Of a stretch of DNA of 64,000 bases, positions 43,011-64,000 are shown in pieces. The stretch is from a virus: IMG/VR virus record IMGVR_UViG_3300027608_002862, positions 1 to 64,000 of that record. One strand, written 5' to 3'. The position numbers and the translations under genes were made by a program. The notes below the pieces were generated by a model that searched no databases, was not told where the DNA came from, and worked only from the letters and a program-made list of their open reading frames with translations. Within the stretch, counting starts at the first letter, position 1; each line of letters opens with the position of its first letter.

Positions 43011-43016
43011 AATAAT

Positions 43017-43592: not shown

Positions 43593-43594
43593 AC

Positions 43595-43669
43595 TGGCCA
43601 TAGTATAATGGATAATACAGCGAGCTTCTACCTCGCGAATGTGGGTTCGATTCCTGCTGGCCGGACCAC
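43595..43669 (+). tRNA. tRNA-Arg(TCT)
   Basis: Acceptor CTGGCCA/TGGCCGG, anticodon stem-loop GCGAG CTTCTAC CTCGC, CCA encoded. It begins 2 bases after the upstream stop codon. Confidence 0.95.
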
Positions 43670-45524: not shown

Positions 45525-46625
45525 ATGCCCTTACAGATTCGCAGAGGCACAAACGCACAAAGACAAGCTATGACCCAGGCTCTTGCCCAGGGCGAACTGC
45601 TGTATGTTACAGATGATCAAAGACTATACATAGGTAATGGTAGCACACTGGGTGGTGTACAAATCACTGGCTATACCAATGAAGACGCACAAGATGCTGC
45701 TGCTCAGTTGTTTGTAAACGGCGCACCACATACTGGTATAAATTTCACATATAATGATGCAGGTGCTAGTATAACTGCGGTGGTCGACCTTCTTAATAAC
45801 ACAGGAACTATAGGAGGAGTTTTCAAAGGCAACGTGGTTGCCGAAGATTCTACACTGCTTATAGATGCTGCTTCGGGACAAATTTTTGGTCCGCTTACAG
45901 GTAATGTCACAGGTAATGTCACAGGTAATGTCACAGGTAATGTCACAGGTAATGTCACTGGCAATATATTCACTAATTTAATCGACTCAGCAGATTCATC
46001 TGCGATAACATTCACACCTGCTGTGGTATTCAACAGTGATGTTACTGTAGATAATCAACTATTTGCTAATTTGGTTGGTAATGTCGAAGGTAATGTCGAA
46101 GGTGATCTCGCAGGTGATGTCACCGGTAATAGAATTTTACTTAATCAGCTACCAGCTACGACAGGAATAAAAATAGTTACTTCTGCAGGCACGTCAAATG
46201 TTAATTTGTTTGAGATTGATACATATCATGATGAAGGGTTACCTGGAGCAATGGTGTTGGGGCGAAGCCGGGGAACACCGAGCAGTCCAACTGCATTAAT
46301 AAACAATGATGCTATCTTTTCATTAGAATTTGGTGGCAGCACTGGAAGTGGCACTTACGGAGCAGCCTATATTACTGCCAGTGTTGGAGGTGTAGTAAGT
46401 CCTGGAGTTTTACCAGGTAGAATGAATATTTTGACTACTTCTACACTTGGAGTTCCAAGTATAAAATTAAGTATTGGTCCTGATGGACAACTGACACTAG
46501 TAGCTCCTGCACTAGTAGCAGGCGGAGCGAGCGGACAAGTAAATGTTAGTTCAATTCTTTCATGGATGAAAGTGACCTTTAATTCAGTTGAGTACGCTAT
46601 TCCAATGTACGCAATTAATCCTTAA
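45525..46625 (+). CDS. Tail-fibre-like structural protein
   Basis: 366 residues. The start PLQIRRGTNAQRQAMTQAL..GELLYVTDDQRLYIGNG is the N-terminal module found in many tail-fibre and hyaluronidase-type proteins of T4-like phages. The middle holds five GNVT units (12-bp tandem repeat), then GNVEGNVEGDLAGDVTGN, a beta-helix-like stack; the C-terminus is Ser/Gly/Val rich. ATAAATATACTAG lies upstream (late-type element). It overlaps the tail of the next gene on the other strand by 11 bases. Confidence 0.88.
   Translation: MPLQIRRGTNAQRQAMTQALAQGELLYVTDDQRLYIGNGSTLGGVQITGYTNEDAQDAAAQLFVNGAPHTGINFTYNDAGASITAVVDLLNNTGTIGGVFKGNVVAEDSTLLIDAASGQIFGPLTGNVTGNVTGNVTGNVTGNVTGNIFTNLIDSADSSAITFTPAVVFNSDVTVDNQLFANLVGNVEGNVEGDLAGDVTGNRILLNQLPATTGIKIVTSAGTSNVNLFEIDTYHDEGLPGAMVLGRSRGTPSSPTALINNDAIFSLEFGGSTGSGTYGAAYITASVGGVVSPGVLPGRMNILTTSTLGVPSIKLSIGPDGQLTLVAPALVAGGASGQVNVSSILSWMKVTFNSVEYAIPMYAINP
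45898..45960 (+). repeat. 12-bp tandem repeat, five units
   Basis: GGTAATGTCACA repeated five times (last unit ends in CACT), encoding GNVT; a possible slippage site for changing fibre length. Confidence 0.95.
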
Positions 46626-47505
46626 CAGAGTTGATTATTTCTCTGAACGCACTAGGTGAAAAAGTTGGTAATAATTTTTTCAATTTTGTAATATCAGGTT
46701 TTCGTTTTTTAGCACTACCTAATAACCCAGGGATTGTAATCCATTTAATATGAGTTTTTCCTAACGACTGAGCAATAATATTAGCTGCTTCTAAGATAGT
46801 TAATTCCTCGTCACTGCCAACATTCACTACTTGTTTGCTACAGTTTGATATTTTAATCACTGCATCAACTGCATCTCTTACATAGCAAAAAGAACGAGTT
46901 TCGTCCGCACCAACAAGTTCAAAATTTTCCTTTTGAATTTTATCAATAATATCTTTAACAAAATGGCCAGTGCCAGAATGTTCGCTATACACATTAAAAA
47001 ATCTAATAACTAAAAAATCAATATTACTGTTAAACAAATAATTCTCTGCTATTACTTTAGGTAACATGTAACTCCAACGAGGGTTGTGAATGTTGCTAAC
47101 ATTTATGTCTGTAATTTCAGGTGTAGGAAAAACAGTAGTGCCTGCTACAACTTCACTGCTGCTTGCATAGATTAATTTGCAGGCAGGATTAGATTCTGCA
47201 AATCTAAACATGGATAGATCTAGTGTTACATTGTTTCTTAGCACATCGTTTGCTTGACTATAAAAATACGTTGTGCCATTTGTTGCGGCCATGTGATAGA
47301 TTATATCAAATTTATTAGACGATTGATCTAAATATTCAATTAGATTGGATCTTACATACGAACAATTTTTAGGCATATAATCACTAAAACGTTGATTGTT
47401 ATCCACAGCCGTGACATCATTATACGGACTAAGTTGATCGCAAAGTTCTCTTCCAATTAATCCACATGCACCTGTGATTAAGATTTTCTTACGGTTACTG
47501 GCCAT
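46615..47505 (-). CDS. NAD-dependent sugar epimerase/dehydratase
   Basis: 296 residues, extended SDR. TGACGLIGREL (NAD binding), DIIYHMAATNG, YASSSEV and catalytic YMLPK are in place. Acts on NDP-sugars. It overlaps the UDP-sugar dehydrogenase gene by 28 bases, so the two likely work in one sugar pathway at the end of a leftward operon. Confidence 0.9.
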   Translation of the reverse strand: MASNRKKILITGACGLIGRELCDQLSPYNDVTAVDNNQRFSDYMPKNCSYVRSNLIEYLDQSSNKFDIIYHMAATNGTTYFYSQANDVLRNNVTLDLSMFRFAESNPACKLIYASSSEVVAGTTVFPTPEITDINVSNIHNPRWSYMLPKVIAENYLFNSNIDFLVIRFFNVYSEHSGTGHFVKDIIDKIQKENFELVGADETRSFCYVRDAVDAVIKISNCSKQVVNVGSDEELTILEAANIIAQSLGKTHIKWITIPGLLGSAKKRKPDITKLKKLLPTFSPSAFREIINSVKD

Positions 47506-48218
47506 AGTTGATTGTCTTCTTTCATTGCTGTAAAATAAGTCTGCGGAATACCTAGCTGCTTAAAGGTATTGATTAAAAAATCTAGATCTTTTGGCAAACA
47601 TTTGCCTCCGAATGCTCGCAGGTTGTCATTTACTTCTAGATAGTGTTGATCGTGATTAACCTGTAAGTATGCATTTAGTACGTTATCGTAATTTGCACCT
47701 GCTGCCTTGCTTAGTTCATACATATGATTTGCAAATACAACCCTTGCCGCGGCCATATTGTTGCTTAACATCTTAATAACTTCTGCTTCTTCTAATGTAC
47801 AAAATATACATTCCTCTCCCCGTAACCAAATAGGGACTGCTTGGTTATCATTACCTACAATTATAGGACGATCGTAACAATCTTCTTCCCACATACGTTC
47901 ACGCAGGAATTCTGGCATATAGTAAATTTTATCATTGATTATTTGTGCAATAGATTTACAGGTTCCTACAGGAACAGTACTTCTAATAACAATACTGCAA
48001 CTAGGATTAACAGCCTTAAGACATTTGATATTATCGACTAGTACTTGTAGACTCAAATCGGTGTCAGTTGGTGTACAAAAAAACACATAATCACAAACAT
48101 ATAAATCTTCAATCGTTGTTCCAGTTAATAAATCGTGTATTACTACAGGACCATTTTTAAGTAAACCTTTGTGTGTGGCCTTTCCTACAATACCGTAGCC
48201 TGCAATTCCTAATTTCAT
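47478..48218 (-). CDS. UDP-glucose/GDP-mannose 6-dehydrogenase family protein
   Basis: 246 residues from the ATG at 48218 (ATGA overlap with the upstream gene). GIAGYGIVGKATHKGL binds NAD; the catalytic Cys is in FGGKCLPKD; EFLRERMWEED is the typical substrate loop. It is shorter than usual (about 390-450) because the C-terminal UDP-binding domain is missing, as in a compact phage form. Makes a uronic acid from an NDP-sugar. Confidence 0.88.
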   Translation of the reverse strand: MKLGIAGYGIVGKATHKGLLKNGPVVIHDLLTGTTIEDLYVCDYVFFCTPTDTDLSLQVLVDNIKCLKAVNPSCSIVIRSTVPVGTCKSIAQIINDKIYYMPEFLRERMWEEDCYDRPIIVGNDNQAVPIWLRGEECIFCTLEEAEVIKMLSNNMAAARVVFANHMYELSKAAGANYDNVLNAYLQVNHDQHYLEVNDNLRAFGGKCLPKDLDFLINTFKQLGIPQTYFTAMKEDNQLWPVTVRKS

Positions 48219-48700
48219 TTGAATGAACTCACTTGACATGAATAAAAAGGAACATTGCTGGCATTAACACCGTAGTGCGCTTCCTTGCTATCAAAGATCC
48301 AAACGTCGCCGGCCTTCCAATTTGTTATATTAAGTTTTTCAAATCCCGCATGATGCCCAAATGTCCAATCTTCTAAAAAGATTAGATATCTAAAGCACCT
48401 GTCTAAGTCTATGCTGTGTTGTTCTCGTAGGGTATAGAATGTATCTGAATGCGTGGGCAATATTAAATTTGGAAGTATGCAAGTCCAACTAACAGAACCT
48501 TCTGCAACATTTAACACTTTTTTAAATCCTTCAGCATTGACTAATTCGTCATTAAAGCTCTGCAATAGATAACCAGAATTATAAAACTTCCTATCCAAAT
48601 GCTCAAAATTTTTAGCAACAAAAGGAACTTGCCTCGCAAACTCGTGGATTTTTAAATCATCCTCCCAGAAGTTTGTTATGTTCCTTACATATTCAATCAT
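48215..48700 (-). CDS. 2OG-Fe(II) oxygenase-like protein
   Basis: 161 residues. THSDTFYTLREQ (HxD), YLIFLEDWTFGHHAG and GDVWIFDSKEAHYGVNAS (second His) fit aspartyl/asparaginyl-hydroxylase-type oxygenases. The 2OG anchor may be the final SCQVSSFK region, which is not typical. ATGA overlap downstream; it overlaps the DUF6356 gene upstream. Confidence 0.7.
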   Translation of the reverse strand: MIEYVRNITNFWEDDLKIHEFARQVPFVAKNFEHLDRKFYNSGYLLQSFNDELVNAEGFKKVLNVAEGSVSWTCILPNLILPTHSDTFYTLREQHSIDLDRCFRYLIFLEDWTFGHHAGFEKLNITNWKAGDVWIFDSKEAHYGVNASNVPFYSCQVSSFK

Positions 48701-48935
48701 TTTTCTTTTTGGCCTTTTCTATTAAATCTTGATATTCTGCATTTGGATGATCTGTTAGATGAGAATGATAAATGTCAATAACTGTCCTAGGTGCTGTGCT
48801 GTTAAACAAGGAAGGTAATACTCCGTGAATAATACTAGCCATACCAGCATAAATTAATCTTATTCCAGAAATCAACGCCCAGGATAGATGCTCTAGGTAT
48901 GTAACTTTGCTTGAATTGAGATGTTTATCAAACAT
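48693..48935 (-). CDS. DUF6356-like small protein
   Basis: 80 residues. TYLEHLSWALISGIRLIYAGMASIIHGVLPSLFNSTAP matches the DUF6356 pattern (EH...A...AG..C..HA..P..F). One amphipathic or membrane helix. Function unknown. Overlaps both neighbours. Confidence 0.75.
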   Translation of the reverse strand: MFDKHLNSSKVTYLEHLSWALISGIRLIYAGMASIIHGVLPSLFNSTAPRTVIDIYHSHLTDHPNAEYQDLIEKAKKKND

Positions 48936-50370
48936 AATTTCTAAAGTATTCTCTCAACAATTCGTTATCTATCTTAATACCTGTTAAGAATTTATGTTTA
49001 TTTAATACTGCAGTCTTTGCTATCTCTATCCGTTTGAAATTATTTTTAAAAAAGTTAGTGTACTCGTTAAGTATGTACGAATCTTTATTGTTCCAAAATG
49101 CCAGATATAGACAATTTTTAACAGTATCTGTGACTAGATATAAGTTGGTATTTTTATTGTTAAAATCATTGACAATTTTTATGTCCAATACTTCACCATT
49201 AATTTTAACTAGATCGCTTCTTCCTTTATGTCTATAAGACACTCCCTGTAGCTCAAAAAGATCGTTGGTTATTATTTCTGTATCATATACTGGCAGGGTA
49301 ACTCCTAGCAGCCCGCCTTGATAAATTTTGATTTTATAAAAATCATCTACGTGATCAAATATCGCAGAATCCTGATATATATTTGATTTATCAATGACCA
49401 CTGTAAAAATTGGTCCGCTAGTCTCATTAGAACCAAATATGCTGGTAATAGATCTAAATACTCCTTGAGCGATAGCCTGTTTTGGTTTATCTTGTATGTA
49501 TGATAAAGTTTGTACATTTAAGTTAGGCCATTGAATATTATTTTTTATGCTAACATCTATAAACTTATCTATCATAAACGGATAAGGGAATATAACAAAC
49601 TCTAGATCATTTTTAAATTCGTAGATATCGTTTATAAAATCTTCTATCGGAAGCATTTCATCTAGATCGTTGAATATGTGTCCAGTTACCTTGTCGCTGA
49701 TTAATGTTGGTAAAAGATATACTGCTAAACTACTTCCGTGATTTAGGTTTCTTACATGTAAACATTTTCCAGAAAACTTTTTTGAATTTCTTATAGAAAC
49801 TTTGTACAAGAATTCGTGTGTATGTTCTACTATTTTAGGTGTTCCCGTAGTACCGCTGCTGGTGCATCGCATCACTACGTTGGACGGGTTAGGGAAAATA
49901 TTCTTAGAAATTTTGAACTGTTCATCATCGACAGTAAAATCTATTTCTTTTATACTGTAGGTTCTATTTGAGCAATTTGAAAAAAATATAAACTTAGAAA
50001 ATGCTTTTGGCTTTTCTTCAATTTCTTTTTTTGAATAATCGTGCAAAAATATATCTATAGGTGATAGTATTTTTGTCTTTGGATCAAAATATGTAACATC
50101 TGAAAAATCATCATTTCTAGTGTAGTCCACTATCACTATCTTTAAAGACAATTCTGCCGCAGCGAAACACACTGCAAGATAATCAATATTAAGTGTCTGC
50201 ATTCCTATGAGAACAGATTCACCGGATTGTGCAGCACATTTATATTTCAATACATATTTCCAAAGATCGATTTTAGAAACTAGATCTTTTTTATCGTATT
50301 GATGTCCCATATGTAAAGGTAATCCTATAAAATTATCACTGATCATGTATCTAGAGATAATATTTTGCAT
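48928..50370 (-). CDS. AMP-forming ligase (ANL superfamily)
   Basis: 480 residues from the ATG at 50370 (TAATG coupling to the upstream gene). TSSGTTGTPKIVEHTH is the ATP-binding motif, FGSNETSGP the second block and GRSDLVKINGEVLD the hinge. It activates a carboxylic acid as an acyl-AMP. The C-terminal Lys domain looks short. No carrier protein is evident nearby. Could attach a small acid to an amine or thiol in this pathway. Confidence 0.85.
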   Translation of the reverse strand: MQNIISRYMISDNFIGLPLHMGHQYDKKDLVSKIDLWKYVLKYKCAAQSGESVLIGMQTLNIDYLAVCFAAAELSLKIVIVDYTRNDDFSDVTYFDPKTKILSPIDIFLHDYSKKEIEEKPKAFSKFIFFSNCSNRTYSIKEIDFTVDDEQFKISKNIFPNPSNVVMRCTSSGTTGTPKIVEHTHEFLYKVSIRNSKKFSGKCLHVRNLNHGSSLAVYLLPTLISDKVTGHIFNDLDEMLPIEDFINDIYEFKNDLEFVIFPYPFMIDKFIDVSIKNNIQWPNLNVQTLSYIQDKPKQAIAQGVFRSITSIFGSNETSGPIFTVVIDKSNIYQDSAIFDHVDDFYKIKIYQGGLLGVTLPVYDTEIITNDLFELQGVSYRHKGRSDLVKINGEVLDIKIVNDFNNKNTNLYLVTDTVKNCLYLAFWNNKDSYILNEYTNFFKNNFKRIEIAKTAVLNKHKFLTGIKIDNELLREYFRNYV

Positions 50371-51425
50371 TAAAAATAATCCTCGAGGTTGCCTTGTCTT
50401 ACTAGATCTAACGTAGCACAATGATAACCTCCACTGAGGGTTTGTGCATGTCTCATGCGTGTTGGAATGACTGTGAACTTGTGTTGCTCTAATACCTTTA
50501 TTAAATTAGTTTGATCTTTTCCTACTATTACCGTATTCTGATCGATACTTAGAATGTTCATTCCAATGTAAGGACTACACGGACTAATACTTCCCGGGCC
50601 AGATTGTGTAACAGGATTAACATTAACGTCTTTAAAATAAATCTTATCCCACTTCTCAAATAATTTAGGACAATTCTCCGGTGTTACTCGTGCGCTGTTT
50701 AACAATACCAAACCAGGACGAAGAGGAATAATGGTGCTGTCAAAGTGTGCGAAACTATAGATATGTTCTGCTGCGTGTAATCGATAACCTCTGGACTCTA
50801 AAGTATTTTTTAACCACTGGAATCCTAACCAATTACCTGTATTAGATATTTGAAATAAAATGTCGCGTCCTAATCTTATACAATTAGGGGCATCGAATAT
50901 AGGTTCAAGATTATTAAGACTGGGTTTTCTAAGATCGGTGAATTGATAAGACTCGTCTAACAGTCTAGGCCTAGGTGCAGAGATCCATTCGGTCCCATCT
51001 GTTATAGCCTCTATCATCACATCATGATAAGCCGTTGTTTCAAACTGTCTGCTTCTGCATGGACTAGGAGTTTCAATCATTAGGTTATCTAACGGCAACA
51101 ACAGGTCTCGGGGACACCAAGTGTACCACCCGGTAGTGGTCCAATCCGGAGTACTAAAAGTTTTGCTGTGATCGATAGGCAAAGGACGATGTACTTTAAC
51201 TCCAGCAAGTGTTAACACATTGCATAATTCATTTGCATCTTCGTTGGCTTCTTCGATTAACCATTTTGGGTAAGGCCCTTCTAACGGCTTAATTTTTTCT
51301 ATGTCATAGTTTGTATAACTCATGCTCATAGTACTACGATCTACGGTTGGAATACGGGCGTTGTCTGCTCTGCCAACAATTATTTCCTTTAAAGGATCCC
51401 AATCATTATTTGATATTATTTTCAA
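50370..51425 (-). CDS. Amidinotransferase (glycine/scyllo-inosamine type)
   Basis: 351 residues. Catalytic Cys in SGGYHCATLDLVR, Asp/His in FAHFDSTIIPL, GRD in CIRLGRDILF, and the start NDWDPLKEIIVGRADNARIP are all typical. It moves the amidino group of arginine to an amine. Overlaps both neighbours. With the PLP enzyme upstream it could guanidinylate an amino sugar or amino acid. Confidence 0.92.
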   Translation of the reverse strand: MKIISNNDWDPLKEIIVGRADNARIPTVDRSTMSMSYTNYDIEKIKPLEGPYPKWLIEEANEDANELCNVLTLAGVKVHRPLPIDHSKTFSTPDWTTTGWYTWCPRDLLLPLDNLMIETPSPCRSRQFETTAYHDVMIEAITDGTEWISAPRPRLLDESYQFTDLRKPSLNNLEPIFDAPNCIRLGRDILFQISNTGNWLGFQWLKNTLESRGYRLHAAEHIYSFAHFDSTIIPLRPGLVLLNSARVTPENCPKLFEKWDKIYFKDVNVNPVTQSGPGSISPCSPYIGMNILSIDQNTVIVGKDQTNLIKVLEQHKFTVIPTRMRHAQTLSGGYHCATLDLVRQGNLEDYF

Positions 51426-52053
51426 AATACTTTCTTTGTATTTTAATACTTAAAACAATCCAGTCACCGCCTGAGAAATTTTCAGCTCCGTGGGGGTAAT
51501 GTGAATCAAATCCGAATATACTATTCGGTTGTTGTCTAAATTTTTTATCTTCTATAATCAACGATATGTCATCGGATATAGGAGCATCTGCATTTAACAG
51601 CAATTGATAATAGTAGCTGTCGTCTTCAAACTTTTCATAACCGTCTACGTGATGCTGAACTACTGTGTTATCACTGATGAAAGATAGTGTTGCCATCCTT
51701 ATTCCAGGTAGCTTATTAATTAATTGTTTTTCTTTAAAAAAAATACTATCAATTATTTTATTGTCATGCGTTTCTTTCCAGCTGTCGTCGGCCAACATAA
51801 TTACTAACCAGCTAGAGCCATTCTTTGATTCGTTTACACGACCATAATTTATAGAAAAATTAGTTTCGTATTTTTGTGTATCGTTGTCTGTAGATAGCAC
51901 CCACCATACGTCTTCGGTGGTATCTTCTTTGGGAAGTTCTAACAATCTTGACAGTACATTTCTCCAAGGATTAGAATTTACAGTAGCAGTAAGACTGGCT
52001 AACAGTTCTTCTAACAAAGTATAGTACTGATAATTATTGTGTTCGACTAGCAT
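51406..52053 (-). CDS. 2OG-Fe(II) oxygenase-like protein
   Basis: 215 residues. HHVDGYEKF (HxD), YYYQLLLNADAP and SIFGFDSHYPHGAENFSGGDWIVLSI (second His) fit the fold; the usual Arg is not obvious. Overlaps the amidinotransferase by 20 bases. Substrate unknown. Confidence 0.65.
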   Translation of the reverse strand: MLVEHNNYQYYTLLEELLASLTATVNSNPWRNVLSRLLELPKEDTTEDVWWVLSTDNDTQKYETNFSINYGRVNESKNGSSWLVIMLADDSWKETHDNKIIDSIFFKEKQLINKLPGIRMATLSFISDNTVVQHHVDGYEKFEDDSYYYQLLLNADAPISDDISLIIEDKKFRQQPNSIFGFDSHYPHGAENFSGGDWIVLSIKIQRKYFENNIK

Positions 52054-53071
52054 ATGCCCTCACTAGATGATGGAATCCTTTTTGATTGAACCATTTATCA
52101 ATCTCGTGTTGTTCTATATGAAATTTGTTTTTTATATAATCCAACGTTTTTAAATTCTTGTTTGCTAATTTGTAAAACAGATTGTAATTATGCTCGATAT
52201 CTGCTTCAATATCTAGTTGGTATGCTTGATAGTTTGCTAGAAAATGTTTTGTATTTTTTACAATAGCATCTAACCTGTCTTGTTCGTTTGGCAAATAAGC
52301 ATAATCTTTTATTAGCATATATTCTTCAAAAGTTTTAAATCCTAATTCCTTAATGTATTTAAACATCTCCGGAGTAGAAGCATGTAAAAATGGATGGCGT
52401 TGGACAAATACTCTGTAGGTCTTTTCTGTAAGATATCTAGAAGTTAAGTCACTGCTGCTTACACCTTCTGAAATTATGCTTAATGCGGTATTCTTATAAA
52501 CTGCCGGTTCGATCCATCCTATATTTTTCGTCCATTCATTCTGAGAAGGATTGGTTCCGTAATGCTTAGATGCGGAATAAACATCGTCTATAGACTGCTC
52601 GACTATCTTATCATACCCATCTACATTATTTTTACACCATTGTTTTTGTTCTTCGGTCCAGGGTTTAAAAAATGTATATACTGAATCGTTTAATAAATCG
52701 CTTTTTTTAAATTTATTCAGGAGACCTGCTCTGTTGTGCCTGTTAGGAACTCCTCCTAGAAATAAAAATTTATTAGAATTTTTATTCCAGATGTATGTTT
52801 CTTTATTTTTATATCCCAAGAAAACAGTATGCATCATAAAATCAAAATGAATTATATTATTGTATTGATGTTGATCGTTAACTATGCCTGCCACCACATG
52901 CAGATCGATACTTTTGTCTAGTAGATCTATGTTACAGTTGTTGTTAAAAAGAAATCCATCTAATAATAGCAACCCTAAAATCTGTTTGCTATCACCTATC
53001 TCTTGCTTTAATAAATCTTCAACTGTGTCTTGTGATATAGCAAATGTTTCTAAATTAACAATCTTATACAT
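52034..53071 (-). CDS. Possible glycosyltransferase
   Basis: 345 residues. The C-terminal half has SRYLTEKTYRVFVQRHPFLHAST followed by YIKELGFKTFEEY, a pattern seen in putative viral glycosyltransferases of the GT10/exostosin-like kind. The N-terminal half is unrecognised. Overlaps neighbours on both sides. Weak family call. Confidence 0.5.
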   Translation of the reverse strand: MYKIVNLETFAISQDTVEDLLKQEIGDSKQILGLLLLDGFLFNNNCNIDLLDKSIDLHVVAGIVNDQHQYNNIIHFDFMMHTVFLGYKNKETYIWNKNSNKFLFLGGVPNRHNRAGLLNKFKKSDLLNDSVYTFFKPWTEEQKQWCKNNVDGYDKIVEQSIDDVYSASKHYGTNPSQNEWTKNIGWIEPAVYKNTALSIISEGVSSSDLTSRYLTEKTYRVFVQRHPFLHASTPEMFKYIKELGFKTFEEYMLIKDYAYLPNEQDRLDAIVKNTKHFLANYQAYQLDIEADIEHNYNLFYKLANKNLKTLDYIKNKFHIEQHEIDKWFNQKGFHHLVRAYASRTQ

Positions 53072-53921: not shown

Positions 53922-53960
53922 ATAACTACTTATTCTTTAAATACGCAGATAACTACTTAT
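53922..53960. promoter_or_regulatory. Divergent control region with repeated 12-bp element
   Basis: ATAACTACTTAT occurs at 53922-53933 and again at 53949-53960. The first copy, read on the reverse strand, abuts the leftward gene's ATG; the second abuts the rightward gene's ATG. TTAAATACG lies between. The same element (ATAAGTAGCTAT) precedes the ATG at 59459. Confidence 0.7.
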
Positions 53961-56568: not shown

Positions 56569-57062
56569 ACGTATTCGGTTATCAACAAACTTAATCTAGG
56601 AATATGTCCAATGTTTGCAGACCCATGCATATCGTAAGAATCGAGAAACACAAACACATCCCCTTTTTTGTAACCTGTCATTAGTGTGTCATTATATATA
56701 AACACATGCCCAGGATGATAGTCCTGTAAAGGAATCCAATATCGCGTTCCGTCCTTTTCATGTACATGCGGGTCTGAATGCATCGGCATGTACTGTCCGG
56801 GATAAAGTTTTGTAATCCACCAATGATTTTCATTCTTTAAAAACGGGAACTCAATTTGAAAACTAAGATCTTCCCCGCTGTCAAATACATACCAGTGAAT
56901 TCCTTCGAGGTCGTATCCTGCATCTGTTGCCTTTTTGTATTCATTGCTTTCTTGTGTATATGCCGGCGGCCAATCTTTTGGTCTAGCCTTGCCTCGGCCA
57001 GATAACACTTCTGCGATCCACTCGTCTTTTATAAATTCAGCAAAATTTCCAATATATTTCAT
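56565..57062 (-). CDS. Aspartyl/asparaginyl beta-hydroxylase-like 2OG oxygenase
   Basis: 165 residues. MPMHSDPHVHE (HxD), HVFIYNDT, GDVFVFLDSYDMHGSANIGHIPRLSLLI (second His, Arg) make a full set. Shorter than the 53961 protein but with the same NIGHIPR ending motif, so the two are related. Coupled to the SGNH-like gene. Confidence 0.8.
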   Translation of the reverse strand: MKYIGNFAEFIKDEWIAEVLSGRGKARPKDWPPAYTQESNEYKKATDAGYDLEGIHWYVFDSGEDLSFQIEFPFLKNENHWWITKLYPGQYMPMHSDPHVHEKDGTRYWIPLQDYHPGHVFIYNDTLMTGYKKGDVFVFLDSYDMHGSANIGHIPRLSLLITEYV

Positions 57063-57071
57063 AATGTTTCC

Positions 57072-57887
57072 TCAATAGCTATCCAAGTGTGCAATGCCTA
57101 ACTTGGCACGAAACTCTTGTGTAAACTTACAGTCCACACGTAACGCATAGTCTTGCTCGCCTATGCTGTCTCCACCGTGCCAATCTTCATCGTTCCAGAA
57201 GCCTGCGTTGCTGTTAATATAGTGTTTATTTTCAGTATCTGGATCCCAAATATAAAATCCACGCTTGGTTCTAAAACGTATGTGTATAAACTCGTTGCGA
57301 TGATCTGTGTAAGAGTTTTTTTCTAATATGCCATTGTTGGCATCTAGGTCTCTATGCTCAAATCCTAATCCGTTATGGTCACAGTGGAAGAATATAACAC
57401 GACCTACCTGGCTAATAATATTCTGTTCTAATAAGTTTTTTACCCATACTACTACACCTGGAAAATATTTGCTTTCTTCTGTGGGTCTACGTTCAGCACC
57501 ACGGTTATTCCAGTCACCTTGCTCCCATAAGAAATAGTAAATGTAAGGATCACTAGCGCCTAGCACCATTTTTAAATAGCGTGTAAATGTATTACGATTT
57601 TTAAAATTGCTCAGGTCTGTAAAGTACAATGGGTCACCGGCAACACGTATAGGATCTGTTTCTGGCAACGCTAGGTATTCTTCTACTGCCTTATAAATTG
57701 GTTTCCAGTTAATAATGTAACTAGCATCTTTCCAATTAAATCCAGGTTTCATCCAGGTGCCTTCTTTAGCATAATCTCTTGCCAAAGCAAAGCCCTTACA
57801 TATTTCAGGATGTAAGTTTTTGAATCCTTCAATGTCTAAGTAAGAATCTAAGTTTATATAAGGCTTACCGCCGATACCTTTAATCAT
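57072..57887 (-). CDS. 2OG-oxygenase-like protein
   Basis: 271 residues. GFEHRDLDANNG, HIRFRTKRGFYIWD and NDEDWHGGDSIGEQDYALRVDCKF place HxD-, strand- and His/Arg-like elements in the right order for a Fe(II) oxygenase. Overlaps the radical-SAM gene by 8 bases. Substrate unknown. Confidence 0.65.
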   Translation of the reverse strand: MIKGIGGKPYINLDSYLDIEGFKNLHPEICKGFALARDYAKEGTWMKPGFNWKDASYIINWKPIYKAVEEYLALPETDPIRVAGDPLYFTDLSNFKNRNTFTRYLKMVLGASDPYIYYFLWEQGDWNNRGAERRPTEESKYFPGVVVWVKNLLEQNIISQVGRVIFFHCDHNGLGFEHRDLDANNGILEKNSYTDHRNEFIHIRFRTKRGFYIWDPDTENKHYINSNAGFWNDEDWHGGDSIGEQDYALRVDCKFTQEFRAKLGIAHLDSY

Positions 57888-58806
57888 ACTGAGTTAATTT
57901 AAATTGTCTAAATTTTTTCTTACGACTAGAATCTAACGTGACTGGTATTCCTAGTTCTACTTTTTGTTTGTCAAATGCACATAGTTCACATACTCGTATT
58001 GGTACTGCTAAGTTGTTAATAAACTCAATTACCGATTTGTCATCGCTTAAAGGATCACATCCCTTATACTGTTCTAATATTTCTCTTGCTTCTTTTTCAA
58101 ATCCAACCTGTAACTTAGCCTCTGGATAATTTGTTACAGGTGGACATTTATATAGAATTCCATGCTGGAATGTGTAAGAGTCTTTCCACACACATGATTC
58201 ATGGCTTTTAACCATATCCCCACCCATCTCAAAATACACAGTACCGTTGTCGACATACTTGTGATAAGGAGGCGCCATTTCTGTAACTTGTTGTAGTCTT
58301 GCTATTAATCGTCCTTCTGAATAGTACTCAAGCATTTTCCAAGACTCTAAAGGTACTTTCTCTTTTTTAACATTTGATAGTGAATCTTTCCAGGGCTCTA
58401 AAATTGCTAATAAGTCTTCATTCATACTATTAAATGTATCTGCATCATGGCAAGAAACCTGTAAGTATGCATTACCATCTCTTATTATTTTTCTTGATAA
58501 CTCAATCCGTTTAGATAATCTAGTGCCGTTAGTGAGTATTTCTATTTTAGCCTCAGGCCACCATTCACGTAAGCTATCAAACCATAACTCTAACTCTGGA
58601 TGTAGATAAGGCTCTCCACCGCATATAGACACATATCTTAGATCTAGAATTTCAGACCATCGCTTATATCGTTGGTTCCAATCACCCCATTTGAACGTAC
58701 CTAAGAAATCATACATAGCTAACCCTGTGCAATGACTACAAGTCATGTTACACAAGTTGTTCACCATCACGGAGAAATTAGTCTCAAATTTTATTCTATC
58801 GGTCAT
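57880..58806 (-). CDS. Radical-SAM protein
   Basis: 308 residues. CNMTCSHC cluster near residue 20, ICGGEPYLHPEL (SAM-binding GGE) and ILTNGTRLS follow in order. The C-terminal ICxxC-like segment (RVCELCAFDK) may hold an extra cluster, as in SPASM/twitch enzymes that modify peptides. Overlaps both neighbouring 2OG genes. Confidence 0.9.
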   Translation of the reverse strand: MTDRIKFETNFSVMVNNLCNMTCSHCTGLAMYDFLGTFKWGDWNQRYKRWSEILDLRYVSICGGEPYLHPELELWFDSLREWWPEAKIEILTNGTRLSKRIELSRKIIRDGNAYLQVSCHDADTFNSMNEDLLAILEPWKDSLSNVKKEKVPLESWKMLEYYSEGRLIARLQQVTEMAPPYHKYVDNGTVYFEMGGDMVKSHESCVWKDSYTFQHGILYKCPPVTNYPEAKLQVGFEKEAREILEQYKGCDPLSDDKSVIEFINNLAVPIRVCELCAFDKQKVELGIPVTLDSSRKKKFRQFKLTQYD

Positions 58807-59405
58807 TATTCAACCCTCGGACCGTTTGCAATAAAAGTTGCACATATCCACTTCTCACCTTTGGTAATTATTGTAGATTCGTGTACGCTAGATTGATTAA
58901 TAGACTCGTCCGGATAGTCATACTCTATCCAAGCCATTGATCCTTTTTTAGGTTTAATAGAAAATCCTAAAATTGGAAAGTAAAACTCACCACCTTCAAA
59001 GTTATCATTTAAATAAAAAATTGCAGTGTGTTTTCTATCCCCACCATTAGTATAATAATTTATCTTTTTTGGTTCAAGAGGATAGTCAACATGCAGATCA
59101 AAAAATTGACCTTCATCATATCTATAAATATCGCCTGCTTCGATGTGTGTTCTAGGAACACCGGTAACTCTAGTTATAATAGCCCAAAAGAATTCTCGAA
59201 TCTCTTGAGGAGTGTCCCAGCTAATATTTCTTTGCTCTATACCTTCGTGCACTTGCCCGTCAGATTGTTGATATGATTCCCATCCTGCTCTTGGGTTCAT
59301 TCCTGCTTTGGTGAATTTGTTAATAATATAGTCACAAAACTCATGATCTACAACGTCTTCGTACACTGTTACCCTAGGCATCTCGCTATAGACAACCTCT
59401 TTCAT
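58806..59405 (-). CDS. Prolyl-4-hydroxylase-like 2OG oxygenase
   Basis: 199 residues. YDEGQFFDLHVDYP (HxD), HTAIFYLNDNFEGGEFYFP, KKGSMAWIEY and SSVHESTIITKGEKWICATFI (His, Lys) form the complete P4H pattern. Hydroxylates prolyl or similar residues, or a free substrate. First gene of this leftward block. Confidence 0.9.
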   Translation of the reverse strand: MKEVVYSEMPRVTVYEDVVDHEFCDYIINKFTKAGMNPRAGWESYQQSDGQVHEGIEQRNISWDTPQEIREFFWAIITRVTGVPRTHIEAGDIYRYDEGQFFDLHVDYPLEPKKINYYTNGGDRKHTAIFYLNDNFEGGEFYFPILGFSIKPKKGSMAWIEYDYPDESINQSSVHESTIITKGEKWICATFIANGPRVE

Positions 59406-59437
59406 TATATACTATCCTTAATTTAAATTACGTACAT

Positions 59438-59458
59438 ACTTATCAGATAAGTAGCTAT
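59438..59458. promoter_or_regulatory. 15-bp palindrome and 12-bp element at second divergent junction
   Basis: ACTTATC A GATAAGT (59438-59452) is a perfect palindrome with a central A. The overlapping ATAAGTAGCTAT (59447-59458) abuts the ATG at 59459 and matches the two copies at the 53.9 kb junction. Confidence 0.7.
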
Positions 59459-60154
59459 ATGACAACAAAGTTTGAGTACTACTATAATAACGTTCCGGGA
59501 AAAGGATTATGTAGGAATAATTTGATCTACACAAGTTTAGTTAATGAAGACAAAACAATTTTTTGCCAACATTATACCAACGATACCGATTATCATAAAG
59601 AACAGAACCAAGTAGTTGATCCAGCATTAATGGAAGAGAAGTGGCTACGAGAAGTGAACTATCTTACTCAAATGCGTAATTCATTCCCGGACATGGTTCC
59701 GGAAATAACAAATATAGATTTAGATAATAAAAAAATCTACATGCAAATACAAGGTGTAGATTTTTGGCAACAAACTCTAGATAACAACTGTGCGTATGAC
59801 GACATATTACCCGATTGGCAAGAACAGATGTTAGAAATTTTTAAAGCGCACAAAACATTAGGTATATACAAGTACAGTTTGCATCCTAGTAGTTACTTTA
59901 TAGTAGATGGCAAACTTAAGAGCATTAATTATTTCTTCTGCTATAAAGATTTTGAACCACAAATATCTATACGTAGTGTATTAAGTCATATTAGTGAAGA
60001 TAGACAACATGATTTGTTTTCTAAAATAGATTCAATGGGGATTTCATTAGATATTCCTACTTCATTTAGCAATCTTCAAATGTTAGCATTTGAAAGTTTT
60101 AAGACAAATTTCCCCATAGACTTCATGGACCGAGCAAAACAATTATATGCATGA
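59459..60154 (+). CDS. Kinase-fold-like protein
   Basis: 231 residues. EEKWLREVNYL, KKIYMQIQGVDFWQ and GIYKYSLHPSSYFIVDGKLKSINYFF occupy positions of a small protein-kinase-like fold, but the catalytic HxD and DFG are altered (HPSSYF, INYFF). It may be a degenerate kinase that binds a substrate. Overlaps the next gene by 8 bases. Confidence 0.5.
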   Translation: MTTKFEYYYNNVPGKGLCRNNLIYTSLVNEDKTIFCQHYTNDTDYHKEQNQVVDPALMEEKWLREVNYLTQMRNSFPDMVPEITNIDLDNKKIYMQIQGVDFWQQTLDNNCAYDDILPDWQEQMLEIFKAHKTLGIYKYSLHPSSYFIVDGKLKSINYFFCYKDFEPQISIRSVLSHISEDRQHDLFSKIDSMGISLDIPTSFSNLQMLAFESFKTNFPIDFMDRAKQLYA

Positions 60155-61310
60155 CACTTATTGTTCATTACCTTTTAGAGAAGTTACAATAAACAACGGC
60201 GACGTGTTGCAACCGTGCTGTCAGAATTATTCCCATCAGATACTAATTAACGAATCTTTTGAGAAATCGTTTAATACCGGTCAATTAGAAAAAGTAAGAA
60301 AACAAATGTTGGCTGGCGAAATTGTAAACGGTTGTGATCAATGCTACAGGGAGGAAGTTGCAGGCATAGAATCCATGCGTCAACGGAGTGTTAAGAAATA
60401 TGGTAATGTTGAAAATATAGAGATACATGCTATACAAATACAATTTGATAATCTATGCAATTTAAAATGCAGAATGTGTTCATCTGCAAACAGTCATCTA
60501 TTATACGATGACGAATTAAAAATATTAGGGAAACCAATTAGCCCTAAAAAATTTGTAGCATCTACAACACACAACGATATCGATAAAACTCATTTAAAAG
60601 AAATTAAATTATTTGGGGGCGAACCGTTGATAAGTCCTCGGGCTCAGGAGTTTGTTAAAGATATGGTACTATCCAATGAGATATCAAAAGTTGTTGTTTC
60701 TACATACACCAACGGAACGGTGCTGCCAACAGATTATATACTCGAAGCATTTAAAAAATGTAGATTTTTAGACTTAAATGTAAGCATAGACGGGGTTGGA
60801 CATTTAAATGAATACATTAGAGGCAAATCAGATTTTAATGAGATAGTAAAAAATTTAAAATTCTATAGTTCTTTAATTGATTCAAGACCAAAGCAGAGTA
60901 CTACTATAGGAATTTCTACGGTTGTAAATGTGTATAATGTAAACAAATTAAAAGAACTAGATCAGTTTATAACTAAAGAATTTTCACAGTTCGAATTAGA
61001 AAAAAAATTCTTATCTTATCCTGAATTTCTACGGATTTCATGTTTGCCTAAGGAATATAAAAATATCATAAAACATGCTGTACAAGACTACCCGGAAGTT
61101 TTGCAATTTTTAAACAAAGATGACAACAACTACTTTGAAGAATTTATTTTTTATAATAATTCTGTAGATAAATTAACCGGTCATTCGTTAAAAGACGTTA
61201 ATTTAGAACTGGCAGAATATATTGAAAATTATAAATCTAAAAAAGAAATCAGCAATCAGCATGTACGAAAATTTTATCCTGTTATAGATCTGAGATCATC
61301 AAATGACTAA
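60147..61310 (+). CDS. Radical-SAM protein with twitch/SPASM-like features
   Basis: 387 residues. An N-terminal Cys-rich start (YCSLPFREVTINNGDVLQPCC, then GCDQC) precedes the cluster motif CNLKCRMC (about residue 107) and FGGEPLISPRA. This order, with Cys outside the core, is typical of twitch-domain radical-SAM enzymes found in large phages. Substrate unknown. Confidence 0.9.
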   Translation: MHDTYCSLPFREVTINNGDVLQPCCQNYSHQILINESFEKSFNTGQLEKVRKQMLAGEIVNGCDQCYREEVAGIESMRQRSVKKYGNVENIEIHAIQIQFDNLCNLKCRMCSSANSHLLYDDELKILGKPISPKKFVASTTHNDIDKTHLKEIKLFGGEPLISPRAQEFVKDMVLSNEISKVVVSTYTNGTVLPTDYILEAFKKCRFLDLNVSIDGVGHLNEYIRGKSDFNEIVKNLKFYSSLIDSRPKQSTTIGISTVVNVYNVNKLKELDQFITKEFSQFELEKKFLSYPEFLRISCLPKEYKNIIKHAVQDYPEVLQFLNKDDNNYFEEFIFYNNSVDKLTGHSLKDVNLELAEYIENYKSKKEISNQHVRKFYPVIDLRSSND

Positions 61311-62286
61311 ACCATACCTTAAAATGCTTGATGTGTACTACGGTGCTAAATGTAATCTATCATGCAATCAGTGCGATACTAGAAGTAATGTCGTTAGAGA
61401 TACAGATAAAGATCCGGATATTGAAACAATATTAGAAGGCATTACACTAGCCAAAGAAAAGTTTGAGATTGAATTGTATAGTGTTATTGGAGGTGAACCG
61501 TTATTATACTTAGATAAGATCGATATTATACTAACGCACATACGAAAAATAGATCCTACTGCAAAGATACAGTTCTCAACAAACGGAACACTGTTATCTA
61601 AACACGTAGATGAAGTCGCAGACTTTTTAATTAAACACGAATCTGGTTTGTTTGTATGTAATCATTTTGCAGCCTTTGATGCAAAAATGACTTCAAAAAT
61701 AACTGAAGGCGTTAACCAGTTAGTTACAAGATTAGGATTACCTAAAGATGATGCAAATCAGTTTTTAAAAAAGTTCATGCAGTTAGATAATCCTAGGAAA
61801 GATCCCTACTTTGGGAAATGGATTGATCAGAATAAAGAATATTTCTTAGGCGAACAGCCTAATGACCATTATTACTGCAACGATAAAATTTTTGTTCACT
61901 TCCGTCCGCAATTTGATTTTAAAAAGAATCACTATATGCAGGCCACAAAACCTAAGCCTTTTAAAACAGGATTACCCCATATCTCTTACAAAGAAGGATG
62001 TAGTAGTCCGATGTGTAATTTTTTACTAGATAAAAAGATATACAAATGTTCTGCATTAGGTACTGTAAAGAAACTTTTAGAATTCCATAATAGCTTAGAC
62101 GACCCCGACTGGAAGAAGTATGTTGACTATCAAGCTCTAAATTTAGAAACATGTTCAGAAGGTGATGTTTTAAAATTTCATTTCTCAAAGTTTTGTGCAA
62201 TACCGGAGTGCGATATGTGTGGAACTGATCACTTTATAAGAAATAAAGAAGATGTAATCAATGTACAAATTAGTAGAATGGAATGA
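61303..62286 (+). CDS. Radical-SAM protein
   Basis: 327 residues. CNLSCNQC cluster near residue 17, VIGGEPLLYLDK and FSTNGTLLSKH follow. The C-terminus has spaced Cys (KYKCSALG, FCAIPECDMCG), likely a second cluster. Overlaps the previous radical-SAM gene by 8 bases and the next gene by 26 bases, so two radical-SAM enzymes are made together. Confidence 0.9.
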   Translation: MTKPYLKMLDVYYGAKCNLSCNQCDTRSNVVRDTDKDPDIETILEGITLAKEKFEIELYSVIGGEPLLYLDKIDIILTHIRKIDPTAKIQFSTNGTLLSKHVDEVADFLIKHESGLFVCNHFAAFDAKMTSKITEGVNQLVTRLGLPKDDANQFLKKFMQLDNPRKDPYFGKWIDQNKEYFLGEQPNDHYYCNDKIFVHFRPQFDFKKNHYMQATKPKPFKTGLPHISYKEGCSSPMCNFLLDKKIYKCSALGTVKKLLEFHNSLDDPDWKKYVDYQALNLETCSEGDVLKFHFSKFCAIPECDMCGTDHFIRNKEDVINVQISRME

Positions 62287-62815
62287 TAAGTTAGACCTTT
62301 CTAGTTTTTATAAAGAAGCAACAGAGAAAGGTTTTTACAATAACAGTAGTCAAAAAACAATGATAGAATGCTTTCATAACGAACATAAGTGGAATGCATG
62401 GATTCTGTATCAAGACGATATTGCTATTGGAAGTGTTGCCGCACATTCGTTTGATGATGTTATGGGCCAGAACAGTTATAGGGTTTTAACTCGTTGTTGT
62501 ATATTGCGTGGAGCAAGAAATGGTGGTGGAATGATGACTGCTAATGTTGCTATAGGCCAACATCAAAATTTAACAGATCAATTCCTATTACCTCAATGCA
62601 TTGAGTGGGCCGGTAATAATGTATATGCTACATCAAACGAAAGTAAGATTGCTAGTCAAAGATTTGTGCACAGAACTTATTTTCCAACGCTAGAAAAAAT
62701 AGGTGTGGTCAAAAAAGTGAAAGACATATTCTACAGAGGTACAGATCAAACTGTATGGAAAATTAATGTAGATTTGTTTTATGAAAACTTAAACCGTTAT
62801 CCTCGCTGGATCTAA
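62261..62815 (+). CDS. GNAT-acetyltransferase-like protein
   Basis: 184 residues. DDIAIGSVAAHSFDD and TRCCILRGARNGGGMMT resemble strands 3-4 and the cofactor turn of GNAT enzymes; later QCIEWAGNNVYATSNESKIASQRFVHR fits the second half. Its 3' end overlaps the convergent SDR gene by 27 bases. Family call is moderate. Confidence 0.55.
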   Translation: MYKLVEWNDKLDLSSFYKEATEKGFYNNSSQKTMIECFHNEHKWNAWILYQDDIAIGSVAAHSFDDVMGQNSYRVLTRCCILRGARNGGGMMTANVAIGQHQNLTDQFLLPQCIEWAGNNVYATSNESKIASQRFVHRTYFPTLEKIGVVKKVKDIFYRGTDQTVWKINVDLFYENLNRYPRWI

Positions 62816-63388
62816 ATTAGGATTACATTTATATAGTTGTTCTTTTAAATAAGGAGTAAGCTGCCATCTGAACTCCACTTGTCGTACTACAGGATGTTGT
62901 ATCCAGAAAATAATAGTATCAATAATATCTTTATGACTTACAGTATTGTCACTTACAAAAGCAGTGGGGATATCTTCATCAACGGTTGTTCCTTCAATAA
63001 AACTCAAATCTAAATGTAACAACGGTATGCCAGTTGGATCAAGACTAATTTTTCTACATGCTTCGGCCAAGGCTTGCTTATCATAAACATATTGTGTTGG
63101 GATAATTTCAGGATAGAATCTACTAACGCTACCCATTACTACCATCATATCAACCTTATTTTTAAGAGCCTGTAATAATTTTAATTGCTGTCCATCTCTA
63201 TACGCATTATTGATAAAGATTTCAGCTCCGGTGGCTTCTTCTACAATTTTGTCAAAGTCTTTATCTATATCGTATCCGTTGCTACGACTCATACCTAGAA
63301 TTTCTCTACAACTACCTTCTTTAAAAGTATTGTATATAGATTTGCCAATGCCATTAGTATGACCCGTGATAATAATTTTCTTTTCCAT
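62789..63388 (-). CDS. Short-chain dehydrogenase/reductase (SDR)
   Basis: 199 residues from the ATG at 63388, which forms TAATG with the upstream stop. TGHTNGIGKSIYN (NAD(P) binding), INNAYRDG and VMGSVSRFYPE then YVYDKQAL (YxxxK) form a compact SDR. Paralogue of the next gene upstream. Oxidises or reduces a small alcohol or ketone. Confidence 0.85.
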   Translation of the reverse strand: MEKKIIITGHTNGIGKSIYNTFKEGSCREILGMSRSNGYDIDKDFDKIVEEATGAEIFINNAYRDGQQLKLLQALKNKVDMMVVMGSVSRFYPEIIPTQYVYDKQALAEACRKISLDPTGIPLLHLDLSFIEGTTVDEDIPTAFVSDNTVSHKDIIDTIIFWIQHPVVRQVEFRWQLTPYLKEQLYKCNPNLDPARITV

Positions 63389-63855
63389 TAGTTTGGCTTC
63401 CCTGGTATAAATGATACACATGTTATCTTAGGATACTCTAACCAAAAATCTATAGTGCGGATGATGAGATCGTAGTCGTTGTAACTGTCGCCTGTTAGTT
63501 GTAATAGCAAGATATCTGCTTTGTTCACAGAGCTATTGGCGACTTCTAGCACACGTTCTTTTAATTCTTTCTTGTGTTTACTATAATCTAGCATATTAGG
63601 ATCTGGATAATCGGAAGCAATGCTACCCATTACAACCATCTTAGCAACGCTAGCGTACAGTTGGTTGAAGATATCTATCTGGTGTCCATTAATGTAAGCG
63701 TTGTTAATAAACAAATCACAACCCACACCCGACTTAATAATTTCATCTCCGCGATTGAGCTCTACAACCTTCCACCCTGATTTTTTAAAGTGTTTAGATA
63801 ATACGTTACCAATGCCGCGTGTTGTTCCTGTAATACAAACTTTCATAGTTACCAT
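63388..63855 (-). CDS. Short-chain dehydrogenase/reductase (SDR), compact
   Basis: 155 residues (or 152 from the ATG at 63846). TGTTRGIGNVLSKHF, INNAYINGHQ, VVMGSIASDYPD and YSKHK (YxxxK) match its downstream paralogue, with the C-terminal part trimmed. The pair may act as a heterodimer or on successive intermediates. Confidence 0.82.
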   Translation of the reverse strand: MVTMKVCITGTTRGIGNVLSKHFKKSGWKVVELNRGDEIIKSGVGCDLFINNAYINGHQIDIFNQLYASVAKMVVMGSIASDYPDPNMLDYSKHKKELKERVLEVANSSVNKADILLLQLTGDSYNDYDLIIRTIDFWLEYPKITCVSFIPGKPN

Positions 63856-64000
63856 AAGTTAAAAATATATTTAGGTTCTAATCCGCAGTTAGAACCAGCA
63901 TGCCAGTATCGTCTGTCTTGCCATCTAAATGTATCACCCTGTGCTTTATTATAAAAGCATTGGTTCTCTACTATAAAGACATGTCCAAACTTTGGCTTTC
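63849..64000 (-). CDS. 2OG-oxygenase-like protein, C-terminal fragment (window edge)
   Basis: The reverse-strand frame is open to the window end. The visible 49 residues (PKFGHVFIVENQCF, GDTFRWQDRRYWHAGSN, then EPKYIFNLW) look like the last strands of a Fe(II) oxygenase or cupin with a metal His in WHAGSN. It overlaps the SDR start (ATGGTAA). Confidence 0.6.
   Translation of the reverse strand, partial: KPKFGHVFIVENQCFYNKAQGDTFRWQDRRYWHAGSNCGLEPKYIFNLW

Follow-up and report, generated by a model that had tools for sequence, protein, structure and literature searches.

A tail-fibre-adjacent enzyme island in uncultivated T4-related jumbo phages and its possible role in glycan-type decoration

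Introduction

The closest described counterparts of the locus analysed here are exchangeable or hypervariable regions of other large phages. In pelagimyophages, hypervariable regions beside the tail fibres carry glycosyltransferases and radical S-adenosylmethionine (radical-SAM) cassettes, for which a change of the host surface has been proposed (Zaragoza-Solas et al. 2020, PMC7029224). Exchangeable modules with five radical-SAM genes and an amidinotransferase are described for Campylobacter phages CP220 and CPt10 (Timms et al. 2010, PMC2853527), and a further report describes another aquatic jumbo-phage lineage with core glycosyltransferases of unknown target (PMC12619734). Here we analyse a window of 64,000 nucleotides (nt), positions 1–64,000 of the linear 68,060-bp viral record IMGVR_UViG_3300027608_002862 (G000), in which an island of ~27 close-packed, AT-rich enzyme genes runs from 46,615 to the record end at 68,060. 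We tentatively prefer to read it, with slightly less than even confidence, as a decoration locus that is linked to the tail fibre in an uncultivated lineage of jumbo phages related to T4, and that makes a glycan-type decoration most likely placed on the phage's own fibre.

The island shares with the pelagimyophage and cyanomyophage regions of PMC7029224 its T4-like carriers, fibre adjacency, sugar genes, glycosyltransferases, radical-SAM cassettes and variable content. Unlike them, it is an unbroken run of ~27 enzyme genes whose core is conserved and ordered, and six of nine island proteins tested (the marker protein u271, the predicted GT-B and GT-A glycosyltransferases, the AMP-ligase, the oxygenase at 53,961 and the kinase-like protein) were matchless by tblastn among 50,697 phage records. 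The amidinotransferase matched 15 of these records, the radical-SAM enzyme at 60,147 matched 40 (<60% identity, nearly all Vibrio phages) and a second twitch-domain protein gave weak matches in four. CP220 also has its amidinotransferase among several radical-SAM and nucleotide-sugar-transferase-like genes; in the Campylobacter module (L073), however, only the amidinotransferase matched island queries at E 1e-4, and no oxygenase block is annotated. Synechococcus phage S-SCSM2R likewise combines an amidinotransferase (36% identity), 2-oxoglutarate (2OG) oxygenases, an aminotransferase annotated as AHBA synthase, a radical-SAM maturase and glycosyltransferases, but shows little further sequence similarity and has more annotated glycosyltransferases. 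The island amidinotransferase is a full-length homologue of the inosamine-phosphate amidinotransferase StrB1 (1bwd), with the catalytic Cys-His-Asp kept in 41/41 groups of related loci, whereas no streptomycin-type cyclitol pathway was identified at the island. The predicted GT-A fold, together with viral protein acceptors and a hydroxylase-plus-transferase theme, recalls the self-encoded virion glycosylation reported for PBCV-1 and mimivirus (R699); the likeness is at fold level only (~10% identity), and the present system belongs to a bacteriophage. In the open-access literature, outside which most subscription papers lie, we found no paper describing this larger ordered island, which we regard as an enlarged, ordered variant of the hypervariable regions known from beside the fibres of T4-like phages.

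Results and discussion

An ordered island conserved across uncultivated viral contigs

Within the window, 22 open reading frames (ORFs) at 46,615–63,855 overlap or are mostly separated by a few bases and are arranged in strand blocks, in agreement with the ~20 coupled genes in alternating blocks of an earlier sequence-only reading of this DNA. From there to the record end the block encodes two further oxygenase-like proteins and a truncated relative of one, a second kinase-like protein, a QueC-like protein of the PP-loop type and another radical-SAM protein of the twitch type; neither the extension past the window nor the tail-fibre linkage described below was part of that reading. Island G+C is 0.348 vs 0.424 before 46,615, a drop that persists to the record end, and G+C at third codon positions (GC3) is 0.291 in 26 island genes vs 0.389 in the 58 other genes of the record (Mann–Whitney p 1.2e-8), bearing out the AT-richness claimed relative to the first 46 kb. 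Island gaps longer than 30 nt measure 39, 53, 263 and 653 nt, the last being the QueC-like gene. A crude hydropathy scan found nearly no membrane segments in island proteins, its hits in the AMP-ligase and a start-extended QueC-like ORF being probably spurious.

Relatives were collected by scanning 2.9 million viral contigs with the amidinotransferase (66 related loci from 73 stretches), the pyridoxal-phosphate (PLP) protein (16/17 stretches related), u271 (125/128 related, 80 kept) and the radical-SAM protein at 57,880 (4/5 related). Merging at ≥90% nucleotide identity over 2.5 kb reduced 167 loci to 63 groups; group counts omit L072–L075, and edge counts omit loci with fewer than six island genes. 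Island families recur in conserved order across dozens of uncultivated viral contigs. Among 45 groups from the u271 scan alone, the twitch radical-SAM protein occurred in 42, the oxygenase-like families ox_e7748, ox56565 and ox_e5850 in 37, 34 and 32, the kinase-like protein in 36, the two short-chain dehydrogenase/reductase (SDR)-like proteins in 32 and 31, GT-A in 28, PLP in 25, GT-B and QueC-like in 24 each, the amidinotransferase in 19 and the AMP-ligase in nine. In this tally distant genes are undercounted, since fetched flanks were ≤10 kb, counts for radical-SAM and oxygenase paralogues are approximate because these were labelled by best match, and the gene caller, being greedy, passed over overlapping genes such as the QueC-like one in some loci. 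Island genes were lower in G+C than their flanks in 53/57 relative loci (not merged into groups). The linked biosynthetic locus envisaged by the sequence-only reading therefore stands, with families found jointly, in order and with shared composition in relatives, and this synteny rules out scattered, unlinked genes.

The island appears to have two layers: a nearly universal core of the twitch radical-SAM protein, QueC-like protein, oxygenases, kinase-like pair, SDRs and u271, and a variable layer of sugar enzymes, amidinotransferase, AMP-ligase and glycosyltransferases, joined in relatives by a flavin halogenase, a TauD oxygenase and a B12 radical-SAM protein. The halogenase gene is of the flavin tryptophan-halogenase type (L071, 16942-18195; PF04820 E 3.2e-57), and the B12 radical-SAM gene (L021, 11517-13346) is nearest the KedN5 family, below the family cut-off. 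Both u271 and the kinase-like gene are found in 12 of the 14 large records, and the remaining pair of records had been fetched via a 37%-identical amidinotransferase; one of the 12 u271 copies (G009) has an internal stop. Among 33 stretches of bacterial genomes matching u271, none was a relative. The amidinotransferase also has a second phage context (L041–L050 and L062; 58–63% identity), mostly beside an 886-aa DNA-polymerase-like protein identified by eye, and therefore also travels without the island. Distant jumbo-phage relatives (L064–L067) have two to three amidinotransferase-like genes per cluster, and two of them, checked over their whole records, had no u271 and kinase-like core.

A fibre-proximal hypervariable site

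A gene for a tail-fibre-type protein with a major tropism determinant N-terminal (Mtd_N) domain flanks the island. Where six or more genes could be seen beyond the island edge, 20/32 groups had an Mtd_N gene one or two genes from that edge, compared with a mean of 5.4 and a maximum of 14 in 10,000 random placements in the same flanks; by another count, it lay within four genes in 23/37 groups. A neighbouring phosphoesterase served as an anchor: it was found on at least 599 contigs, of which 80 were kept and 36 loci had enough sequence, and the anchored site held at least two island families in 18/36, at least one in 24/36 and none in 12/36. The site is a fibre-proximal hypervariable locus of which the island is a common occupant. 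The earlier description of the locus as transferred thus holds only in the sense of an exchangeable, hypervariable site that holds island families in some relatives and none in others; the core looks long resident within the lineage.

A Gp23-type (T4-type) capsid gene was present in ten of the 14 records, which reach 364 kb; none turned up in G000, whose record is incomplete, or in three others. Among the listed capsid proteins of cultured phages, those closest to one of these Gp23 proteins were ~67–72% identical and came from jumbo phages of Sinorhizobium, Vibrio and Pseudomonas. One contig with the variable layer (L182) falls in a Puniceispirillum metagenome bin, which is weak evidence on host.

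Intact active sites and purifying selection

Catalytic residues were invariant across groups in the amidinotransferase, PLP and PP-loop proteins and in seven oxygenase-like and four radical-SAM families. No group passed the 30% identity filter of this conservation test for the oxygenase at 51,406, and for the AMP-ligase family five motif positions were checked, two of which agreed in only 5/14. Against the nearest relative, dN/dS was 0.037–0.188 for 11/16 genes, with synonymous change saturated in the other five; these values indicate that island genes are under purifying selection and not in decay. Together with the invariant active sites, they rule out a chance collection of look-alike ORFs.

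The individual enzymes named by the sequence-only reading fared unevenly. All three radical-SAM genes (57,880; 60,147; 61,303) exceed the Pfam cut-off and keep CX3CX2C in relatives, and the amidinotransferase is solid. At least seven 2OG-oxygenase-like genes had been claimed, and six whole genes and one cut by the window end are present, half of them recognised by motif only (48,215, 56,565 and 57,072, as opposed to 51,406 and 53,961 for PF05118 and 58,806 for PF13640, above the Pfam cut-off). The AMP-ligase has its motif but falls below its family cut-off, the PLP enzyme has an invariant lysine but weak family matches, and of the two SDRs one is weak and the other barely supported. Similar genes had also been noted elsewhere in the window: the radical-SAM ORFs at 1-696 and 37,682 are AT-rich (G+C 0.359 and 0.352), the former being a truncated paralogue of the latter (47% over 123 aa), but the oxygenase match at 43,017 is weak (PF13759, below cut-off) and not AT-rich (G+C 0.436), and 698–1,267 has no family match. 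By sequence comparison, the identities are strong for the epimerase, the UDP-glucose-dehydrogenase-type enzyme, the amidinotransferase, the radical-SAM proteins, the three oxygenases above cut-off and the DUF6356 protein, moderate for the AMP-ligase, kinase-like and PP-loop proteins, and weak for the PLP protein and the other oxygenase-like ones, where family support is poor but key residues are invariant.

The two kinase-fold-like proteins (59459-60154 and record 65074-65781) are homologous to each other. In the family of the first, S140, S145 and N157 were kept in 39/39 groups, and positions paired by eye with the catalytic Asp/Asn of kinases are Ser/Ser in that family (39/39 groups) and mostly Thr/Cys in the other, so the pair may be pseudokinases or may have altered chemistry. 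The oxygenase-like ORF e6659 (record 64658-65050) is shorter than its relatives, has no distal His and lies alongside the 263-nt gap; it is probably truncated in the present record.

Predicted glycosyltransferase folds

Two island proteins were recognised as candidate glycosyltransferases from predicted structure. The 345-aa protein had no match in Pfam, PHROGs or NCBIfam, Pfam searches over all 29 members of its family gave only scattered weak matches, and profile searches with it, the 375-aa protein and u271 turned up no solved structure that was convincingly related in sequence. The AlphaFold model of the 345-aa protein (mean pLDDT 85.8) has a predicted GT-B fold and aligned in VIA with T4 alpha-glucosyltransferase over 263 residues (Z 12.1, root-mean-square deviation (rmsd) 4.3), with many other GT-B chains close by at Z of about 10–12. 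The 375-aa model (mean pLDDT 91.1) carries a GT-A domain, whose best Foldseek matches were mimivirus R699 (E 4.2e-5), human LH3 and ColGalT1, and whose leading VIA matches included the capsid glycosyltransferase of PBCV-1 (Z 10.5, rmsd 3.5, 159 residues) as well as LH3 (Z 10.2); the C-terminal part of the protein gave only weak methyltransferase matches in Foldseek. Given that this predicted likeness is at fold level only, we do not assign the 375-aa protein to the ColGalT or LH3 families.

A candidate route to a decorated fibre

The amidinotransferase scored 311.5 bits with StrB1, ahead of SxtG at 210.1. Its homologues in bacterial genomes (~40% identity) lay near NeuB- or CMP-synthetase-like genes in 7/21 loci, and near NeuB-, CMP-synthetase-, NeuC- or polysaccharide-deacetylase-like genes in 9/21. 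The StrB1 likeness, these surface-sugar neighbours and the cyanophage and Campylobacter-phage clusters together point to a guanidino- or amidino-bearing sugar. The sequence-only reading had allowed for a sugar, a peptide or a cofactor as product, and the evidence leans towards a glycan-type decoration. The families GtrA (PF04138), PF01943 (flippase) and PF00953 (WecA-type) were found in none of the 14 records, which may be incomplete; because these families are missing and the island proteins have nearly no membrane segments, a cytoplasmic acceptor is probable, and the simplest such acceptor is the neighbouring fibre. Several of the best structural matches of the GT-A protein act on viral or collagen proteins, which also speaks for fibre decoration. 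In the route that we tentatively propose, soluble enzymes in the infected cell would turn out an activated sugar or sugar-like block, oxidised and aminated and probably carrying a guanidino group, through the epimerase, dehydrogenase, PLP enzyme, amidinotransferase, AMP-ligase, radical-SAM enzymes and Fe(II) oxygenases. The GT-B and GT-A glycosyltransferases would then load the block onto a cytoplasmic acceptor, most likely the adjoining tail-fibre/receptor-binding protein, some of whose side chains may be hydroxylated beforehand by some of the oxygenases.

Several observations weigh against this proposal. We infer both its product (the building block and the guanidino group on a sugar) and its acceptor, as well as the order of the steps; several enzymes are named from motifs or weak matches; and the glycosyltransferase folds are predictions at ~10% sequence identity, a fold moreover not revealing an acceptor. 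An Mtd_N gene was absent from the two positions next to the edge in view in 12/32 groups, and in G001, a record of 364 kb, >10 kb separate the fibre-like gene and the island. Minimal clusters (e.g. L152 and L154) have no labelled glycosyltransferase, so the core may do something else. Finally, 12/21 bacterial-genome amidinotransferase loci had none of the glycan markers searched for; at least four of these 12 look phage-derived (L182, L184, L185 and L200).

Alternative explanations

The main rival to fibre decoration, which we consider unlikely but deserving of real weight, is remodelling of the host surface, in which sugars made or altered by the island would be put on an envelope glycan by host machinery and would exclude competing phages. 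Enzymes such as UDP-glucose dehydrogenase and the epimerase supply bacterial envelope glycans, and the surface-sugar clusters around nine of the 21 bacterial amidinotransferase homologues fit this explanation as well. The same is proposed in PMC7029224 for the similar fibre-proximal pelagimyophage region with its glycosyltransferases and radical-SAM cassettes. The missing GtrA, PF01943 and PF00953 families and the soluble island proteins count against it, though not decisively, since export might be provided by the host. Serotype conversion of the Gtr type was itself rejected, GtrA being found in 0/14 records, some possibly incomplete.

An autonomous form of virion decoration in a widespread jumbo-phage lineage, in which Fe(II) oxygenases and radical-SAM enzymes would prepare side chains or sugars, the amidinotransferase would add a guanidino group and GT-A and GT-B would load the tail fibre, strikes us as fairly unlikely. 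Hypermodification of nucleic acids, either phage DNA or the phage's own tRNAs, by the QueC-like, radical-SAM, amidinotransferase and GT-B proteins is a lesser rival that we judge improbable. In VIA the GT-B model ranks the DNA glucosyltransferases of T4 first (Z 12.1 and 11.2), with other GT-B proteins within about 1–2 of them, and the record holds 29 tRNA genes; nucleobase modification is kept as a rival because, of the QueC/QueD/QueE set of 7-deazaguanine modification, a QueD-like PTPS protein occurs in 8/14 records and the PP-loop QueC-like protein in 12/14, the same 12 as u271. The PP-loop protein is, however, remote from Pfam QueC (PF06508; E 0.015; cut-off reached in 1/14 records), and this explanation leaves the sugar-nucleotide genes, the SGNH gene and the fibre adjacency unexplained. 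A thymidylate-synthase/hydroxymethylase family was present in only 2/14 records, and base hypermodification that starts from a phage enzyme of the thymidylate-synthase type was rejected as an account valid for all of them.

More doubtful still is a diffusible natural product, or a modified peptide resembling ribosomally synthesised and post-translationally modified peptides, made during infection. The radical-SAM, oxygenase, AMP-ligase, PLP and amidinotransferase genes do resemble antibiotic clusters, to which relatives add the flavin halogenase and the KedN5-family-like protein, but island gaps leave almost no room for a precursor peptide (a larger or distant one is possible) and no transporter or carrier protein was recognised. 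A hypervariable dumping ground of unrelated auxiliary genes without a joint pathway would suit the 12/36 relatives that have the same neighbouring gene and no island family there, but is very improbable in view of the conserved order and co-occurrence, the overlapping genes in strand blocks and the invariant active sites.

Gene inventory and other features of the record

Features of the island and its fibre-type neighbour are collected in Table 1. The protein at 62,261-62,815 is GNAT-like by eye only.

Table 1. Genes of the island and the flanking fibre-type gene, in window coordinates unless marked as record coordinates; triad and residue counts are in groups of related loci.
Feature	Position	Strand	Support
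Tail-fibre-type protein, Mtd_N domain	45525..46625	+	PF18454 E 3.6e-11; flanks island, convergent
NAD-dependent nucleotide-sugar epimerase/dehydratase	46615..47505	-	PF01370 E 1.6e-29; phrog_540
Short UDP-glucose-dehydrogenase-type enzyme, two domains only	47478..48239	-	PF00984 E 5.1e-16; phrog_9148
Oxygenase-like, HxD...H triad	48215..48700	-	no family match; triad 23/23
DUF6356 protein (80 aa)	48693..48935	-	PF19883 E 1.7e-14
AMP-forming (ANL) ligase-like enzyme	48928..50421	-	PF00501 E 1.3e-5, below cut-off; SSGTTGTPK motif
Amidinotransferase (351 aa), nearest StrB1	50370..51425	-	1bwd E 6.6e-92; D107, H227, D229, C336 in 41/41
Asp/Asn-hydroxylase-family oxygenase	51406..52053	-	PF05118 25.7 bits, cut-off 22.6
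Predicted GT-B-fold glycosyltransferase (345 aa)	52034..53071	-	AlphaFold model
PLP aminotransferase-like protein	53064..53921	-	weak: Pfam E 0.065, NCBIfam E 0.0012; K182 37/37
Asp/Asn-hydroxylase-family oxygenase	53961..54716	+	PF05118 29 bits; triad 35/35
Predicted GT-A-fold glycosyltransferase (375 aa), second C-terminal domain	54694..55821	+	AlphaFold model
SGNH/GDSL hydrolase-like protein	55816..56568	-	PF13472 E 0.0014, below cut-off
Oxygenase-like, HxD...H	56565..57062	-	triad 42/42; no oxygenase family match
u271, most conserved marker, HxD...H oxygenase-like	57072..57887	-	H178, D180, H237 in 50/50; no oxygenase family match
Radical SAM enzyme	57880..58806	-	PF04055 30.7 bits, cut-off 29.5; CX3CX2C 15/15
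2OG-Fe(II) oxygenase (2OG-FeII_Oxy_3)	58806..59405	-	PF13640 E 3.1e-10; triad 15/15
Kinase-fold-like protein, canonical catalytic Asp/Asn apparently absent	59459..60154	+	profile match to TTK kinase E 1.5e-4
Twitch-domain radical SAM enzyme	60147..61310	+	NF033640 E 1.1e-72, above cut-off
Radical SAM enzyme	61303..62286	+	PF04055 46 bits; CX3CX2C 25/25
184-aa protein	62261..62815	+	in 24/45 u271-scan groups; no informative family match
SDR-like protein, weak	62789..63421	-	KR E 0.024; 32/45 u271-scan groups
SDR-like protein	63388..63855	-	adh_short E 1.2e-4, below cut-off; 31/45 u271-scan groups
HxD...H oxygenase-like, cut by window end	record 63,849-64,394 (window 63849..64000)	-	triad 29/29
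Second kinase-like gene, past window	record 65074-65781
Fourth radical SAM gene, past window	record 67,081-68,058

Outside the island, the 29 tRNA genes lie at 36739-43668, an array that contains the radical-SAM gene at 37682-39139 (weak B12-binding match), and a tmRNA was called at 4153-4577. At 19522-21523, a CsgG curli-secretion gene (PF03783 E 2.6e-53) precedes one for a protein with curlin repeats (PF07012 E 2.2e-4); according to PMC7029224, CsgF/CsgG are reported and CsgA/CsgB are missing in pelagimyophages, which makes a curlin-type subunit on a phage record noteworthy. Papers retrieved on curli in freshwater phages mostly concerned other subjects. A heme oxygenase gene (16672-17232; PF01126 E 1.2e-20) stands beside ORFs that by eye are DnaK-, Hsp20- and ClpS-like.

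Conclusion

A large phage lineage devotes a sizeable stretch of its genome, some 20–30 active-looking enzymes, to chemistry nobody has measured. Should the island remodel the host or nucleic acids instead of the fibre, it would still make an unknown product of intact radical-SAM, oxygenase and amidinotransferase enzymes. Autonomous decoration, if true, would be a phage counterpart of the collagen-type hydroxylation and glycosylation of giant viruses, controlling host recognition or shielding, and decoration of the fibre, if true, would represent a new post-translational layer in the recognition of hosts by phages.

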